Source: ANME-2 cluster archaeon (GTDB taxonomy: Archaea; Halobacteriota; Methanosarcinia; Methanosarcinales; Methanogasteraceae). From it: DNA of 5,510 nucleotides. The stretch covers positions 1 through 5,510 of the forward strand of contig PIXW01000054.1 of assembly GCA_003601535.1 (NCBI GenBank), written 5' to 3'. Shown one piece after another: positions 1 through 5,471 of this stretch (position 1 is its first letter; each line of letters begins with the position of its first letter). Made by a program: the position numbers and the translations under genes. The notes beneath the pieces were generated by a model. It searched no databases, had not been told where the DNA came from, and was given only the letters and a program-made list of their open reading frames with translations.

Positions 1-579
1 AATCAGGAGGTCTTTGAGAAACTCAAGGAAGAGAATACAAGGATCATCAACGAGAGCGGTATCGAGACGCTTGTTGTGAGCTGTGCGGAGTGTTACAGGA
101 CATTTCTTCTGGACTATGATCTCGATTGCGAGGTGAAACACATCAGCCAGGTTCTATCCGATGCAGATCTCGGAATAACAGACGACTCAGAGACCGTAAC
201 GATCCACGATGCGTGCAGGCTCGGGCGCCATACCGGTGAGTACGAGGCTCCACGAAAGGCAGTTGCAGCAACCGGCGCAAACATGGTCGAGATGCAGCAC
301 AACCGCGAGAATGCGCTCTGTTGCGGTGTCAGTTCGATGATGAACTGCAATGACCGTTCAAAAGCACTCAGAGTCCTGCGTATGGATGAGGCGAAAGCGA
401 CAGGTGCTGATGTGATGATCACGTCATGTCCGAAGTGTCTTGCGCATCTGAACTGTCTCAAGGAAGAGGAGGATACAGAGCACGGGCACGATTATCCGTT
501 CGAGGTGCTTGATCTTACCGTGTATCTGGCACGCAAATTAAACGGCAATAATGACAATGGAGTCGGTAGCGATGAGTGA
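1..579 (+). CDS. HdrD-like (Fe-S) protein with CCG domains, 5' end missing
   Basis: The reading frame is open from the first base of the window, so the start lies upstream; only the last 192 residues are seen. They begin in the tail of one CCG domain, whose closing CxxC is fragment C28/C31 (SCAEC, nt 82-93). A complete second CCG domain follows: C72 (HDAC), C107-C108 (CCG), C143/C146 (CPKC). The spacing C-x34-CC-x34-CxxC is close to the family pattern that binds a noncubane [4Fe-4S] cluster in HdrB and is also found in HdrD, GlpC, LutA and TmcB. Two CCG domains in tandem suggest a soluble electron-transfer or disulfide-reductase protein; any N-terminal ferredoxin domain would be outside the window. 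Its stop codon overlaps the hdrC start by 8 bases, so it is very probably co-translated with the Hdr complex. HdrD-like is the best general label; the true substrate cannot be read from this fragment. A GTG at 76 is internal to the CxxC motif region and is not the start. Confidence 0.85.
   Translation, partial: NQEVFEKLKEENTRIINESGIETLVVSCAECYRTFLLDYDLDCEVKHISQVLSDADLGITDDSETVTIHDACRLGRHTGEYEAPRKAVAATGANMVEMQHNRENALCCGVSSMMNCNDRSKALRVLRMDEAKATGADVMITSCPKCLAHLNCLKEEEDTEHGHDYPFEVLDLTVYLARKLNGNNDNGVGSDE
559..562 (+). promoter_or_regulatory. Ribosome binding site deciding the hdrC start
   Basis: GGAG sits 9 bases before the ATG at 572. The two in-frame ATGs further upstream, at 551 and 557, have only AT-rich sequence before them and no purine-rich site, so 572 is preferred as the hdrC start. 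The site lies inside the coding region of the preceding gene, consistent with translational coupling. Confidence 0.6.
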
Positions 580-1111
580 CACTGACATGAAGGTTATCAA
601 GACGAGCGATCTTGATCTGGCATTCAGAGAAGAGATAATGAAAGAACACGGTGCTGAAAAACTGAGTATGTGCTTCAACTGCACAGGCTGTACCGCGGGC
701 TGCACGATGGCAGAGCACGAACCAAACTACAACATCAGGCAACTACTCCGGATGGCGAATCTCGGAATGCGAGAGGAACTCTTAAATCACCCGTATCTCT
801 GGAACTGCACGACCTGCTACAAGTGTCAGGAGCGGTGCCCGCAGGGCGTGCATAATGTCGATATCCTCTTAAAAATCCGAACGATGGCGGTTCACAGCGG
901 AATCATGCTCGACAAACACAGAAAGGTTGCACAGTTGATGGCAAATACCGGACACGCAGTTCCGATAAACGACGATAACAAGGAGAAACGGAAGAAACTC
1001 GGCATGGGTGAGCTTCCTGAGACCGTGCACAAATATCCTGACGCACTCGAAGAGGTGCACAAGATCGTCAGGATCACAGGATTTGACAAACTGACAGAGG
1101 CGCAATCATGA
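572..1111 (+). CDS. hdrC: CoB-CoM heterodisulfide reductase subunit C (two [4Fe-4S] ferredoxin-type protein)
   Basis: HdrC is the small electron wire between HdrA and the catalytic HdrB in the soluble Hdr complex. From the ATG at 572 the product is 179 aa, the usual length of the family. Two cubane-cluster motifs are intact: C34-C37-C40-C44 (CFNCTGCTAGC) and C79-C82-C85-C89 followed by proline (CTTCYKCQERCP). The helical C-terminal part, with the segment KLGMGELPET and the ending ITGFDKL, is typical of HdrC. There is no signal peptide or membrane segment, which separates it from membrane-bound HdrE-type partners. The start at 572 is chosen for its GGAG site; starting at 551 would add MTMESVA. 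It overlaps the upstream CCG gene by 8 bases and hdrB by 4 (ATGA). The identification is firm; whether the physiological disulfide is CoM-S-S-CoB depends on the host. Confidence 0.95.
   Translation: MSDTDMKVIKTSDLDLAFREEIMKEHGAEKLSMCFNCTGCTAGCTMAEHEPNYNIRQLLRMANLGMREELLNHPYLWNCTTCYKCQERCPQGVHNVDILLKIRTMAVHSGIMLDKHRKVAQLMANTGHAVPINDDNKEKRKKLGMGELPETVHKYPDALEEVHKIVRITGFDKLTEAQS
1097..1100 (+). promoter_or_regulatory. Ribosome binding site for hdrB
   Basis: GAGG lies 7 bases before the hdrB ATG at 1108, inside the 3' end of hdrC. Together with the ATGA stop-start overlap (1108-1111) it supports coupled translation of HdrC and HdrB and fixes the HdrB start. Confidence 0.55.
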
Positions 1112-2007
1112 GCGAACTATCATTCTTCCTTGGGTGTATCGCACCTAACAGGTATCCTGGTATCGAGAAAGCAACAAAGATCGTGATGGAGGAGCTCGGT
1201 GTGCATCTCAAAGAACTGAAAGGTGCATCATGCTGTCCCGCGCCCGGAGTCTTCAGATCATTTGACAAGATCACATGGCTTGCGCTTGCATCCAGAAACG
1301 TCGTACTCTCCGAAGAGATGGGCGTGGACCTCCTGACGGTCTGCAACGGATGCTTCGGATCACTCGTGGATGCAAACAACCAGCTCAAAGAAGACCAGGA
1401 TCTGAGGGCTGAGGTGAACAAGATACTTGCAGAGGTTGGACACGAGTTCAAGGGCACAATCAGGGTGCGCCATATCATGGAGTATCTGTACGATGATGTT
1501 GGTGTCGAGAAGGTCAAAGAATCGATCAAGTATCCTGTTGACCTGAAGATTGCTGTGCATTACGGCTGCCACCTGATCAAACCGTCAAAGGAGAGGCATC
1601 TCGGCAGTATAGAGAACCCAACGTTCTTTGACGAGCTTGTTGAGGCAACAGGAGCGACATCGGTGATGTACAAGGACAAGAACGCATGCTGTGGCGCAGG
1701 CGGCGGCGTGCGGACATCAAGTCTCGAGACCGCACTCAAGCTTGCCAGAGCCAAGATCGAACATGCGCAGGCAGCCGGTGTTGACTGCATCGTGGATGCG
1801 TGTCCGTTCTGTCATCTGCAGATGGATGTTGGTCAAACCGAGATTGAAAAGAAGTTTGGAGATGTTTTTAATATGCCAATCGTTCACTATTCACAGCTTC
1901 TCGGACTTGGAATGGGATATACTCCGCAGGAACTGGGTATCGACATGAACTACGTCAAGAACGACGAGTTCATAGCAAAGATTGAGAAGATAGGGGGTGG
2001 TAACTGA
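1108..2007 (+). CDS. hdrB: CoB-CoM heterodisulfide reductase subunit B (catalytic, noncubane clusters)
   Basis: HdrB is the disulfide-reducing subunit; in the characterised methanogen enzyme two noncubane [4Fe-4S] clusters cleave CoM-S-S-CoB. The 299-aa length is normal. Both CCG domains are complete: C10, C42-C43, C79/C82 in the first and C154, C194-C195, C232/C235 in the second. From memory this register is one residue off the ligand set reported for the Methanothermococcus HdrB structure, so every cluster ligand appears to be kept. The signatures FLGCIAPNRYPG, VCNGCFGS, HYGCHLIKPS, CCGAGGG and DACPFCHLQMD are characteristic. There is no membrane segment, so the protein is cytoplasmic. The start at 1108 overlaps hdrC by 4 bases and the stop overlaps the hdrA ATG by 1 base (TGATG). 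Intact ligands argue for a working thiol-disulfide active site, though a related disulfide other than CoM-S-S-CoB cannot be excluded. Confidence 0.96.
   Translation: MSELSFFLGCIAPNRYPGIEKATKIVMEELGVHLKELKGASCCPAPGVFRSFDKITWLALASRNVVLSEEMGVDLLTVCNGCFGSLVDANNQLKEDQDLRAEVNKILAEVGHEFKGTIRVRHIMEYLYDDVGVEKVKESIKYPVDLKIAVHYGCHLIKPSKERHLGSIENPTFFDELVEATGATSVMYKDKNACCGAGGGVRTSSLETALKLARAKIEHAQAAGVDCIVDACPFCHLQMDVGQTEIEKKFGDVFNMPIVHYSQLLGLGMGYTPQELGIDMNYVKNDEFIAKIEKIGGGN
1996..2000 (+). promoter_or_regulatory. Ribosome binding site for hdrA
   Basis: GGTGG, within a G-rich run from 1993, lies 6 bases before the hdrA ATG at 2007. It matches the GGTG part of the anti-Shine-Dalgarno complement and supports this start together with the TGATG overlap with hdrB. 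Confidence 0.5.
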
Positions 2008-5000
2008 TGGCAGACTTGATAGGCGCGGTTGCGATAGCAGGCGGCGGTATCGCTGGGATACAGTCAGCACTCGATCTTGCTGATAGCGGGCTCAAGGTCT
2101 ACCTGATCGAGTCGAAGCCATCGATCGGCGGCGTGATGGCGCAGCTCGACAAGACGTTCCCGACGCTCGACTGCTCGATGTGTACGCTCTCGCCGAAGCT
2201 TGCAGAGGTAGCAAGACACCCAAACATCGAAATCCTGCCGTACAGCGAGATCAAATCGATATCAGGAGCTGCTGGTAACTTCGATGTCACGGTAACAAGA
2301 AAAGCGACGTATGTTGACCCTGATAAGTGTACGGCATGTGAACTCTGTCTTGCCAAGTGTCCTTCGAAGGTTCTGGATGAGTACAACGAGGGGCTGACCA
2401 AACGAAAGGCGATCTATCTTCCATTCCCACAGGCAGTGCCAAGGGTGATGGTAATCGATGCCGAGCACTGTCTCTATCTCACGAAAGGCAAGTGCGGCAA
2501 CTGCAAGAAGGTCTGTGAGAACGATGCGATCGATTACGATATGAAGGACAGGGATGAGGTGATCAAGGTCGGATCGGTCATCCTCTCGACAGGATTCGAG
2601 CCTTATGATCCCACGCCACTCGAACAGTACCATTACGAGCACCCTGATGTCCTAACATCCATTGAGTTCGAACGCCTCCTATCAGCATCAGGTCCATCCG
2701 AAGGGCATGTGCAGCTGGCAGACGGAACGACTCCAAAGAAGATCGCATGGCTCCAGTGCATAGGATCGCGAAATCCTGAGATCGGGCGTCCGAACTGTTC
2801 TGCGGTCTGCTGCATGTACGCAACCAAGGAGGCGATGGTTGCGATGGAGCACGACCCTGAACTGGAGGCGACGATCTTCAACATCGATGTGCGTGCATTC
2901 GGTAAGGGCTTTGAACAGTTCTACCAGCGTGCAAAGAACGAGAAAGGGGTCAGATTTATCAGATCACGTCCATCAGGCGTTGATATCGATCCGATCACAA
3001 ACAGACTCTCAGTGCAGTACGAGGTCGAGGAATCGGTTGAGACTGCTATCGAAGAGTTTGACATGATCGTGCTATCAATTGGACTCACACCATCCGAGTC
3101 AAGCAAGAAACTCGCTGAGATCGCAGGTGTTGAGATGGACGAGTACGGAAACATCGCTACCTCGATTGAGAAGCCGATGACGACAAGCGTTCCTGGAATC
3201 TTTGCATGTGGAACGATGATAGCACCAAAGGACATACCAGACACCGTGGCAGATGCATCAGGCGCTGCATCAAAGGCACACTCGGTCCTTGCATCAGAGA
3301 GAGGGACGCTCGTTACCGAACGAGCATATCCGCCTGAAAAGGACATAACAGGCGAAGAACCGCGAATCGGGGTTGTTGTCTGTGACTGCGGAATTAACAT
3401 CGCTTCGGTCGTGGACGTTCCAGCGGTTGTAGAGTACGTAAAGACCTTGCCGCATGTGGTTCATGCCTACGAACAGACGTATGCATGTTCGACAGACTCA
3501 CTCGACGTCATCAAGGAGAAGATCAAGGAGCATAACCTGAACAGGTTCGTTGTAGCTTCATGCACCCCGAGAACGCACGAACCCTTATTCCAGGACACAT
3601 GCAGAGGTGCGGGCTTGAATCCGTATCTCTTTGAGCTTGCAAACATCAGGGAGCATTGCGCATGGGTGCACCAGAAGGAGCCGGAAAAGGCTACAGAGAA
3701 GGCAAAAGAGATCGTCAGGATGAGTGTGGCAAGGGTCGCTCTTTTGGATCCGCTCTACACCCAGAAACTGGACTTCAGTCACAGCGGGCTTGTTATCGGC
3801 GGCGGCGTTGCCGGAATGACTGCGGCGCTCGACATTGCTGAGAAGGGCTTTACAGCGTATCTTGTTGAGCGGGAACATGAACTCGGCGGGCTTCTCAGGA
3901 AGTTTACGAGGCTGCAGGACGGACGTAAGACGAGCGAGGTCATTGACCCGATGATCGAGGCTGTTATGAGCAATCCGAATATTGCTGTTTACACCGGCAC
4001 AACGCTTGATGAGGTCGAGGGCGCGATGGGAAGCTTCAAAGGAAAACTCTCAAACGGTGAAGAGATCGAGTTTGGATCAGCGATCATTGCAACCGGCGCA
4101 AACGAGTTTGTACCCGAGGGCTACTTCGGATACGGAAGCGACAACGTGATCACGCAGTCAACACTCGAAACGATGCTCGAAGAAGGAACTGTCGATGCGA
4201 AGACTGTAGTGATGATCCAGTGCGCAGGTGGCAGAAACGAGGAGAGACCATACTGTTCCCGTGTCTGCTGTACGACAGCTATGAAGAACGCGATCCGGCT
4301 CAAGGAAGCTGACCCGAATATAACGATCTACATCCTCTACCGTGACATCAGGACTTTCGGAATCTGGGAAGATCTCTACACCCGTGCACGAGAGCTCGGC
4401 GTCTTCTTCATGCGCTACACCGAGACCGACGAACCGGTTGTTGCGAATGGAACCGTGACACTCCATGACAAGCTCCTGCACAATACACCATTCGAGATCG
4501 CAGCAGACCTCGTTGTATTGAGCTCGCCACTCGTGGCACCAGACGGAGTGGAAGACCTTGCGACACTCTTCAAGGTACCGATAGACGCGGACAGGTTCTT
4601 CCTTGAAGCACACATCAAGCTGCGACCGGTTGACTTTGCAACCGATGGTGTATTCCTCGCAGGGTGCGCTCAGGCACCAAAGTTGGTCAACGAGTCGATC
4701 TCGCAGGGATCGGCTGCTGCATCGCGGGCATGTTCGATCCTTGCAAAGGACTTCCTTGAGACGAGTGGTGTTATGGCGGTCGTGGATGAGGATGTCTGCA
4801 TCGGATGTGGCAGATGTACTGAGGTCTGTGCGTACAGCGCACCCACACTCAAGGAGGTGGAGGTTGTGACCGAGGAGATCACGTACATAACCCGCAAGAG
4901 CGAGATCAATCCTGCGATCTGCAAGGGTTGTGGATCATGCGCTGCGGAATGTCCAACAAGTGCGATCACGTCACGGCATTTCACAACAGAACAGATATCG

Positions 5001-5054
5001 GCTGTGATCGATGCGTTCGCTTATGCTGATGGTCGCGTCAGGGAGGTGGCGTAG
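2007..5054 (+). CDS. hdrA: Double-length fused HdrA (two FAD domains, about seven [4Fe-4S] clusters)
   Basis: HdrA is the FAD-bearing, electron-bifurcating hub of the soluble Hdr complex. This one is 1015 aa, against roughly 650 aa for the usual methanogen subunit, and contains two HdrA-like halves. First half: FAD motif GGGIAG (residues 12-17) with acidic E35; DCSMC loop (55-59); inserted ferredoxin with C108/C111/C114/C118 and C155/C163/C166/C170; cluster motif C251-x12-C264-x3-C268-C269; and the signature PKDIPDTVADASGAA (407-421). A linker follows at about 431-452. Second half: HdrA N-terminal domain at about 453-585, with VCDCG (C459, C461), YACS (C494), SCTPRTHEPLF (C519) and C551; second FAD motif GGGVAG (598-603) with E621; cluster motif C739-x10-C750-x3-C754-C755; and a C-terminal ferredoxin with C931/C934/C937/C941 and C972/C975/C978/C982. 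The second FAD domain has no inserted ferredoxin. The frame is uninterrupted and both halves keep their motifs, so this is a genuine fusion. There are no membrane segments and no in-frame selenocysteine codon. Roles by analogy: the ferredoxin domains exchange electrons with ferredoxin and HdrC, and MvhD feeds one FAD; which FAD bifurcates is unknown. Confidence 0.95.
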   Translation: MADLIGAVAIAGGGIAGIQSALDLADSGLKVYLIESKPSIGGVMAQLDKTFPTLDCSMCTLSPKLAEVARHPNIEILPYSEIKSISGAAGNFDVTVTRKATYVDPDKCTACELCLAKCPSKVLDEYNEGLTKRKAIYLPFPQAVPRVMVIDAEHCLYLTKGKCGNCKKVCENDAIDYDMKDRDEVIKVGSVILSTGFEPYDPTPLEQYHYEHPDVLTSIEFERLLSASGPSEGHVQLADGTTPKKIAWLQCIGSRNPEIGRPNCSAVCCMYATKEAMVAMEHDPELEATIFNIDVRAFGKGFEQFYQRAKNEKGVRFIRSRPSGVDIDPITNRLSVQYEVEESVETAIEEFDMIVLSIGLTPSESSKKLAEIAGVEMDEYGNIATSIEKPMTTSVPGIFACGTMIAPKDIPDTVADASGAASKAHSVLASERGTLVTERAYPPEKDITGEEPRIGVVVCDCGINIASVVDVPAVVEYVKTLPHVVHAYEQTYACSTDSLDVIKEKIKEHNLNRFVVASCTPRTHEPLFQDTCRGAGLNPYLFELANIREHCAWVHQKEPEKATEKAKEIVRMSVARVALLDPLYTQKLDFSHSGLVIGGGVAGMTAALDIAEKGFTAYLVEREHELGGLLRKFTRLQDGRKTSEVIDPMIEAVMSNPNIAVYTGTTLDEVEGAMGSFKGKLSNGEEIEFGSAIIATGANEFVPEGYFGYGSDNVITQSTLETMLEEGTVDAKTVVMIQCAGGRNEERPYCSRVCCTTAMKNAIRLKEADPNITIYILYRDIRTFGIWEDLYTRARELGVFFMRYTETDEPVVANGTVTLHDKLLHNTPFEIAADLVVLSSPLVAPDGVEDLATLFKVPIDADRFFLEAHIKLRPVDFATDGVFLAGCAQAPKLVNESISQGSAAASRACSILAKDFLETSGVMAVVDEDVCIGCGRCTEVCAYSAPTLKEVEVVTEEITYITRKSEINPAICKGCGSCAAECPTSAITSRHFTTEQISAVIDAFAYADGRVREVA
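2313..2546 (+). other. Inserted ferredoxin domain of the first HdrA half
   Basis: Residues about 103-180 of HdrA interrupt the first FAD domain. They hold a canonical CxxCxxCxxxCP motif (C108 to P119) and a second, atypical one, C-x7-C-x2-C-x3-C (C155, C163, C166, C170), the form seen in HdrA inserted ferredoxins. In the methanogen complex this domain is taken to be the outlet to free ferredoxin. The second half has no counterpart: there, FAD-domain strands are joined by a short segment (residues about 676-692). Confidence 0.8.
3360..3761 (+). other. HdrA N-terminal-type domain located mid-protein
   Basis: Residues about 452-585 match what normally forms the amino terminus of HdrA: IGVVVCDCGINIASVVD at the start, YACS, SCTPRTHEPLF, LNPYLFELANIREHCAWVH, then a helix rich in KA/EK leading into the second FAD domain. 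This marks the junction of the fusion, since a second HdrA reading begins here after the end of the first FAD domain (about 430). The usual VCHCG is VCDCG here. Its cysteines would ligate one [4Fe-4S] cluster. Confidence 0.8.
4770..4976 (+). other. C-terminal 2x[4Fe-4S] ferredoxin domain of HdrA
   Basis: Residues about 922-990 carry CIGCGRCTEVCA (C931, C934, C937, C941) and CKGCGSCAAECP (C972, C975, C978, C982). This is the only C-terminal ferredoxin of the fused protein. In the known complex it docks to HdrC, so one HdrC/HdrB arm per polypeptide is expected. The first motif ends in CA rather than the usual CP; the second is canonical. Confidence 0.85.
5042..5048 (+). promoter_or_regulatory. 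Strong ribosome binding site for mvhD
   Basis: GGAGGTG, a 7-base match to the complement of the 16S rRNA 3' end, lies 6 bases before the mvhD ATG at 5055, inside the last codons of hdrA. It is the strongest such site in the window and may give MvhD its own efficient initiation, where no stop-start overlap is available. Confidence 0.65.
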
Positions 5055-5471
5055 ATGGCTGAATTCGAACCGAGGATCGTCATGTTCTGCTGCAACTGGT
5101 GTTCGTATGCCGGCGCAGACCTGGCTGGCGTCGCCAGGCTCCAGTACCCGACAAACACCAGGGTCATCCGGGTGATGTGCTCAAGCAGAGTACAGCCCAC
5201 ATTCATCCTGCGAGCGTTAAAAGAAGGCGCGGACGGCGTGCTTGTCACAGGCTGCCACATCGGTGACTGCCACTACGTTGACAGTAATGTGCACACCAGG
5301 GACCGGATGGAACACGTGGTCGATGCGATGGAGCATCTCGGACTTGAGGGCAGGGTACGTCTCGAATGGATCTCTGCAAGCGAGGGACCGAAGTTTCGGG
5401 AGACGGTCACCGAGTTTGTCGGACAGATCAAGGCGCTTGGACCGAGTCCGCTTCGGGACACAGCAGAATAG
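5055..5471 (+). CDS. mvhD: MvhD-type [2Fe-2S] adaptor subunit
   Basis: MvhD links an electron-input enzyme (hydrogenase MvhAG, formate dehydrogenase or others) to HdrA through a [2Fe-2S] cluster. The 138-aa product is full length for the family. Its signature motifs are present in order: [11 protein letters not shown] (C12, C13, C16), [10 protein letters not shown] (C42), and GCHIGDCHY (C67, C72). The C-terminal segment with [13 protein letters not shown] (about residues 103-115) is also typical. The gene starts at the base after the hdrA stop, with a strong ribosome binding site, so it belongs to the same operon. Position after hdrA fits its known docking to HdrA. No hydrogenase gene accompanies it in the window, so the partner may be encoded downstream or elsewhere. 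All cysteines are encoded by normal codons. The family call is secure; the partner is unknown. Confidence 0.95.

Follow-up and report, generated by a model that had tools for sequence, protein, structure and literature searches.

HdrA proteins have been described both as single subunits and as fused chains. The solved structures (5odc, 8rvu, 7bkb) are symmetric dimers of a protein of ~650 aa with one thioredoxin-reductase domain; with two arms and two outlets, they are unlike the fused chain described here. In the published electron cryo-microscopy (cryo-EM) scheme, the arm of one HdrA protomer serves the flavin adenine dinucleotide (FAD) of its partner. The high-potential electron exits via HA4', and the low-potential electron moves via the shuttle cluster of the arm, HA3, to HA5'. 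The Cys197 ligand of the N-terminal cluster is donated by the partner protomer (PMC9012536). For anaerobic methanotrophic (ANME) archaea, Chadwick 2022 (PMC9012536) describes HdrA3 and HdrA4 as two fused HdrAs with complementary Cys197 and N-terminal domain, each chain being its own heterodimeric partner; their gene clusters often include HdrBC and MvhD. A 2024 fusion survey (PMC11237513) reports fused duplicated HdrA across archaea. Lyu 2025 (PMC12054007) groups such proteins as type II HdrA, with A3 as the commonest class, two thioredoxin-reductase domains, an origin from classes A6 and A12, and parts that lie on separate branches. Some of these clusters contain HdrBC and MvhD, and, according to the text, type II HdrA has not been studied biochemically. 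Here we describe a fused HdrA encoded on contig PIXW01000054.1 of an ANME-2 cluster archaeon. The window that we analysed is this entire contig (C241, 5510 bases).

The genome to which the window belongs (1.67 Mb, 78% complete) contains a McrA match. Among the matches listed, the closest named protein to the fused HdrA shares 91% identity with it and is annotated as Candidatus Methanogaster, which we take to be ANME-2c. The architecture and the idea of an internal heterodimer were already known from PMC9012536 and PMC12054007. Our contribution to this known kind of fusion is a sharper, testable mechanism with an asymmetry between the halves. The initial annotation of the window had proposed an asymmetric internal dimer as a possible novelty. 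The dimer finds support in the complementary ligands, in the superposition of each half on a protomer and in complementary two-gene versions, but the novelty falls away because the idea had been published.

Domain layout and conservation of the fused HdrA

The chain aligns with 5odc_A (HdrA of M. thermolithotrophicus) over three stretches, in rearranged order, at 675.9 bits and E 8.6e-202 (Table 1). In this alignment, half 1 has no N-terminal domain and no C-terminal ferredoxin. Half 2 has no inserted ferredoxin and carries T642 and E644 at the positions of C194 and C197; its N-terminal domain contains the cysteines C459, C461, C494, C519 and C551. The cluster motifs read C251-x12-C264-x3-CC in half 1 and C739-x10-C750-x3-CC in half 2. 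By ligand inventory, each chain has sites for seven [4Fe-4S] clusters and two FADs. The initial annotation had recognized two FAD motifs, two C-x(10-12)-C-x3-CC motifs, a single inserted ferredoxin in the first half, a single N-terminal domain in the middle and a single C-terminal ferredoxin at the end, all of which we found in the 1015-aa open reading frame (ORF) or its alignment to 5odc_A. Its single ferredoxin outlet is likewise upheld, the inserted ferredoxin being present in half 1 only.

Conservation was followed in two samples. The first is a 48-row alignment of the window protein and 47 relatives picked from the top of a protein listing (the best 120 of 7999 scored); fused proteins were taken by choice, so it is biased to the fused form. 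The second comprises 80 named loci (the best 80 of 579 confirmed stretches). It was assembled by means of two peptide words, drawn from half 1 and from the N-terminal domain respectively, and so leans to copies keeping both. The 80-row counts given below refer to the window and 79 of these loci (L124, an unfused pair, is left out) and include one near-identical pair, L065/L066. In four rows (L096, L134, L135, L136) the ORF start was placed after an in-frame TGA, which leaves gaps in place of the FAD1 motif, and one additional row is gapped at G12 and G14.

The fused form proved to be widespread. A single collinear row spanning at least residues 6-1003 was present in 38 of 60 genomes, the window's own included, and 33 of these 38 have no stop listed inside the fused HdrA. 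For G022, G026 and G034, in which the ORFs are open over 995-999 aa, the listed in-frame TGA is apparently the terminal stop. All 48 rows of the alignment are full-length and collinear. The named loci are fused and collinear in 79 of 80 cases, four of them with one in-frame TGA; the 80th is L124. Hosts include Methanosarcinales, Bathyarchaeota, Lokiarchaeota, Thermoplasmata, sulfate reducers, Chloroflexota and others, so that fused HdrA occurs in methane-oxidising archaea as well as in many other archaea and bacteria. One of these copies, L070, comes from the record of Methanosarcina sp. DH2.

It is possible to suspect an assembly or base-calling artefact that joins two genes, since tandem unfused pairs only one stop codon apart exist in three genomes of the same family, and one otherwise fused copy (G036, L029) has its frame disrupted between about residues 440 and 465, i.e. 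at the junction of the halves. However, this explanation is refuted by the conservation of the collinear form in genomes and named loci alike, to the point of being practically out of the question; moreover, a linker separates the halves, and each half is set apart from the unfused pairs in the trees. We also rejected a stop-codon or frameshift artefact in the window itself. A stop or frameshift near 3297-3362 in sequencing reads had been named as a finding that would overturn the fusion; the ORF is open in the window, and collinear copies occur in all three sets of relatives. As a separate observation, the fused HdrA of G053 (L034) contains an in-frame TAA in half 2; this broken copy and that of G036 may be pseudogenes, split genes or sequencing errors.

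The chain does not fit type I, the methanogen homodimer with one thioredoxin-reductase domain and ~650 aa, or type Ia (HdrA2), in which MvhD is fused at the C terminus; here MvhD is a separate ORF behind a stop, and against NF040770 the protein scored 985.8 bits, below the cut-off of 1100. As in type II, two thioredoxin-reductase (FAD) domains lie in one chain, and the N and C parts fall on separate branches. The N part matches the pattern of class A6 as worded in PMC12054007 (no N-terminal domain, no C-terminal ferredoxin), and class A12 is said there to resemble the C-terminal region of type II HdrA. Judged by its sequence, we file it under type II (Lyu 2025), as HdrA3-like only. Like HdrA3 and HdrA4, it combines complementary Cys197 and N-terminal domain in one chain. 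However, section 15 of Chadwick 2022 (PMC9012536), as worded, assigns the N-terminal domain to the first of the two fused HdrAs and Cys197 to the second. The order found here is the reverse in 48 of 48 alignment rows and in 80 of 80 rows, and the N-terminal-domain motif was found ahead of half 1 in none of the 80; the difference may be a slip of wording.

Proposed electron flow through the two halves

The sole arm is found in half 2, and the sole C197 equivalent and the inserted ferredoxin in half 1; in terms of the cryo-EM scheme, this points to exactly one complete circuit, at FAD1. We consider it likely that the halves fold on each other as HdrA protomers do, and that each chain probably forms one bifurcating or confurcating unit centred on FAD1. 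The N-terminal domain of half 2 would bind its cluster together with C59 of half 1, so that this arm, made up of the half-2 N-terminal domain, the C-terminal ferredoxin and MvhD, would dock on half 1. Mid-potential electrons from MvhD would reach FAD1 through this arm, and the low-potential electron would exit via the inserted ferredoxin of half 1. FAD2, with neither an arm nor an outlet, would be mainly structural or serve as an electron relay. By analogy with Chadwick 2022 and Lyu 2025, one functional system over two loci is expected, running toward F420 in a methane oxidiser.

When a predicted model was compared chain by chain with solved HdrA structures, both of its halves could be superposed on a protomer, with matches to those of 5odc, 8rvu and 7bkb or related entries. 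The superposition on the HdrA dimer proposed in the initial annotation was run by protomer, and both halves match. Half 2 fits 8rvu_A (state 2) with a root-mean-square deviation of 3.0, versus 8.8 for 8rvy_A (state 1).

If there is a single circuit at FAD1, constraint should be stronger on FAD1 than on FAD2. Equivalents of E356 and K409 are present at both flavins of the window protein (E222/K274 and E721/K760). The loss of lysines agrees with the prediction: neither K274 nor E222 is lost in any of the 80 rows, whereas K760 is lost in 21, with at least 8 changes on a quick tree. E721 is lost in 5 rows, and 22 rows lack E or K or both at FAD2. For control, we looked at the 16 single-HdrA ORFs of 600-860 aa in the named loci, in which K409 and E356 are each present in 15. 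Lyu 2025 (PMC12054007), in the text consulted, gives both residues as conserved in 75% of type II and infers a possible double bifurcation; split by half, the loss observed here is on the C side only. Neither the single-circuit reading nor the C-side-only loss of K409 was found in the literature searched, which was covered as running text. In the most specific form of our proposal, bifurcation takes place at FAD1 alone, which the half-2 arm supplies in trans; FAD2, released from this task, would have lost its lysine repeatedly but kept its flavin motif and cluster, and would act as a relay or as a dock for a second, different acceptor such as the HdrD-like protein. This form we put forward tentatively, as one that may well turn out wrong.

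Several observations weigh against a single circuit centred on FAD1. On the FAD2 side, the window protein, all 48 alignment rows and 17 of 17 unfused second-gene rows retain both E and K, so that FAD2 is not degenerate here, and the GxGxxG motif and four cluster cysteines are kept in 80 of 80, beyond the need of a purely structural half. FAD2 therefore probably still binds flavin, and it may relay electrons. Mean pairwise identity of the core is only slightly lower in half 2 (0.49) than in half 1 (0.54). The arm is not always whole, the cysteines of the C-terminal ferredoxin being partly absent in 4 of 80 rows. Model confidence is low at residues 48-56, beside C59, and the trans cluster of C59 and the N-terminal domain, although likely, is a prediction from ligands, outside what the chain-by-chain comparison shows. 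The direction of flow and the carrier are ones we infer by analogy, and the FdhB-like gene lies on a separate contig. Finally, Lyu 2025 (PMC12054007) takes both flavin sites as competent.

This last point also favours two bifurcation reactions per chain, one at each FAD, as suggested there for type II HdrA. The E/K pairs, FAD motifs and cluster cysteines found in both halves (in the window and in all 48 alignment rows) are in line with it. However, half 1 has no arm that could feed FAD2, half 2 has no inserted ferredoxin, and the repeated loss of K760 is set against the complete retention of K274. Double bifurcation thus seems quite improbable to us. If true, a single trans circuit would correct the reading of type II HdrA as bifurcating twice. 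The two halves of one gene could then be altered separately to test the cryo-EM scheme, an approach that is closed to a symmetric homodimer.

A purified complex offers a comparison by description only: the MetFV-HdrABC-MvhD complex of Moorella thermoacetica, whose HdrA is described as much like HdrA3/HdrA4, is bacterial and coupled to methylenetetrahydrofolate (methylene-H4F) reductase, unlike the window system. It has 2 FAD and 9 [4Fe-4S] in the table of a review (Buckel and Thauer, PMC5861303), which places two FADs in HdrA. By our own sum, the 9 [4Fe-4S] could be accounted for by 7 in HdrA and 2 in a single HdrC.

The window's genome encodes a further HdrA. On contig C97 (L061:486-8870), a second block comprises HdrA (655 aa), MvhD, FdhB-like and FdhA-like genes. 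In L046 the fused-HdrA block and this second block lie side by side in divergent orientation, and in L057 and L058 the MvhD gene behind the fused HdrA is followed by a second HdrA, MvhD, FdhB-like and FdhA-like genes. Fused chains might associate among themselves or with the separate 655-aa HdrA, C59 serving the N-terminal domain of another chain. Such a domain-swapped oligomer would be compatible with the single-chain model, and the full-length HdrA, encoded with MvhD and FdhB/FdhA-like proteins on C97 and placed after fused HdrA and MvhD in L057 and L058, would supply a partner. We nevertheless consider it unlikely: one arm and one acceptor half are already present in one chain, the linker joins parts that must meet, and L064, L113 and L126 (stretches of at most 17 kb) contain a fused HdrA without another labelled HdrA. 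The FdhA-like protein of C97 has 485 aa with molybdopterin domain matches and is followed by a 1009-aa beta-helix protein with a weak dockerin match.

The high-potential side of the complex may be less simple than the one HdrC/HdrB arm that had been proposed for it. Both halves keep the four cysteines of the thioredoxin-reductase-domain cluster, the exit toward HdrBC, in 80 of 80 rows, and the operon contains a gene for an HdrD-like protein; the single arm, and with it the 1:1:1:1 HdrABC-MvhD unit of the initial annotation, is thus at most a candidate arrangement. The halves could use different high-potential partners, HdrBC and the HdrD-like protein, giving two exits per chain. This would be consistent with the retention of both cluster sites and with the HdrD-like gene that also heads the operon in L043, L044, L045, L047, L048 and L062. 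On the other hand, L049, L056 and L060 have HdrB and HdrC without an HdrD-like gene in the stretch read, and we rate the chance of two exits as low.

Unfused pairs and the origin of the fusion

Twenty fused proteins, each divided into its halves, were placed in one tree with single HdrAs; all 20 N halves formed one group and all 20 C halves another. On the evidence of these separate groups, the fused HdrA is therefore the result of joining two paralogues, and an internal duplication was rejected. Adjacent unfused genes can be observed in close relatives. In G003, G007 and G013, which belong to the same family, a 433-aa HdrA ends in TAG and is followed by the in-frame ATG of an HdrA with the N-terminal domain (L052:15737-17039, L055:6878-8180 and L054:8145-9447, the latter on the minus strand). 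L124 from Bathyarchaeota contains a similar in-frame unfused pair. Altogether the 80 named loci contain 16 tandem pairs. In 4 of these the two genes share a reading frame, several pairs adjoin a fused HdrA, and one shares a contig with one of the three same-family pairs. The unfused pairs divide the domains between two genes with the same complementarity as the fused halves. The tandem pairs HdrA5/6 and HdrA12/13 of Chadwick 2022 show a like division of domains in two adjacent, unfused genes, and the pairs seen here are candidate members of these classes.

In the C tree, the 80 fused C halves group together to the exclusion of the two unfused rows (support 99). The N tree has a clade of 79 fused halves (support 99), at whose base the four unfused rows and the fused Freyarchaeota sequence L103 are unresolved. 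This pattern is consistent with one or more fusions of a tandem pair through loss of a stop codon. In seven loci (L083, L086, L092, L093, L107, L112, L130; six Lokiarchaeota records and one Bathyarchaeota), a tandem pair of ~440 and ~565 aa lies side by side with a fused HdrA.

The in-frame TGA codons mentioned above coincide with the C59 position, which is Cys in 76 of the 80 fused rows and TGA in the other 4 (L096, L134, L135, L136). Among the unfused first-gene rows, 3 of 19 (L099, L134, L135) also have TGA at the Cys197 position. Selenocysteine is known for HdrA in a CxxU motif, and the same context here predicts a selenocysteine at the partner-donated cluster ligand.

The operon and its neighbours

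The features of the window are listed in Table 1. Relatives of the HdrD-like protein have 358-361 aa, and a full-length one (L043:6458-7534) contains Fer4 and two CCG stretches. The HdrB stop and the HdrA start overlap (TGATG). In the window's family, no further Hdr-related gene of the operon follows MvhD in L043-L045, L047 and L048; the L062 stretch ends at MvhD.

Table 1. Genes of the window and features of the fused HdrA
Feature	Position	Strand	Evidence
HdrD-like Fe-S protein, 3' part, cysteine-rich CCG domain	1..579	+	PF02754 E 4.4e-19; truncated by contig start
HdrC, 186 aa	551..1111	+	TIGR03290 179.4 bits, cut-off 160
HdrB, 299 aa, two CCG stretches	1108..2007	+	TIGR03288 473 bits, cut-off 345.15; PF02754 twice
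Fused HdrA, 1015 aa	2007..5054	+	ORF ATG to TAG without internal stop
Half 1 (residues 1-431): thioredoxin-reductase core, FAD1, inserted ferredoxin	2007..3299	+	
FAD1 motif GGGIAG, residues 12-17	2040..2057	+	G12, G14, A16, G17 invariant in 48/48 rows
C56 and C59 (C194/C197 equivalents)	2172..2183	+	alignment to 5odc_A
Inserted ferredoxin, two clusters (C108/111/114/118, C155/163/166/170)	2328..2516	+	eight Cys in 80/80
E222 (E356 equivalent)	2670..2672	+	E in 80/80
First thioredoxin-reductase-domain cluster site, C251, C264, C268, C269	2757..2813	+	80/80
K274 (K409 equivalent, flavin N5)	2826..2828	+	K in 80/80
Linker, residues 432-449	3300..3353	+	between aligned ranges of halves; unfused pairs break there
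N-terminal HdrA domain, residues 450-588, mid-chain	3354..3770	+	query 450-622 vs 5odc_A 2-174, 204.4 bits
FAD2 motif GGGVAG, residues 598-603	3798..3815	+	G598, G600, G603 in 80/80
E721 (half-2 E356 equivalent)	4167..4169	+	E in 75/80
Second thioredoxin-reductase-domain cluster site, C739, C750, C754, C755	4221..4271	+	80/80
K760 (half-2 K409 equivalent)	4284..4286	+	K in 59/80
C-terminal ferredoxin, two clusters (C931/934/937/941, C972/975/978/982)	4776..4973	+	PF12838, PF00037; eight Cys in 76/80
MvhD (FlpD), 138 aa	5055..5471	+	PF02662 E 3.4e-52

The TAG of HdrA directly adjoins the ATG of MvhD in the same frame (window 5052-5057). Loss of this stop would yield an HdrA-MvhD fusion, as found in other HdrA classes. 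In seven same-family relatives the stop after HdrA is TAG (3) or TAA (4), and in five others it is TGA or TAA; it varies and is therefore an ordinary stop. Read-through of TAG by pyrrolysine, whether at the junction of the unfused genes or at that of HdrA with MvhD, was rejected in view of these varied stops and of the PylB result: none of 11 same-family genomes, most of them incomplete, has PylB above the curated cut-off (10 show weak sub-threshold matches), and one control genome scored above it.

One contig of G007 (C45; L052:5376-9432, L053:5844-8077) appears to carry an interrupted version of the operon. Its HdrA is reduced to about residues 448-1015 and its HdrB is shortened; between them lies a block of ~16 kb with other genes, including many Hdr genes, which suggests an insertion or a misassembly.

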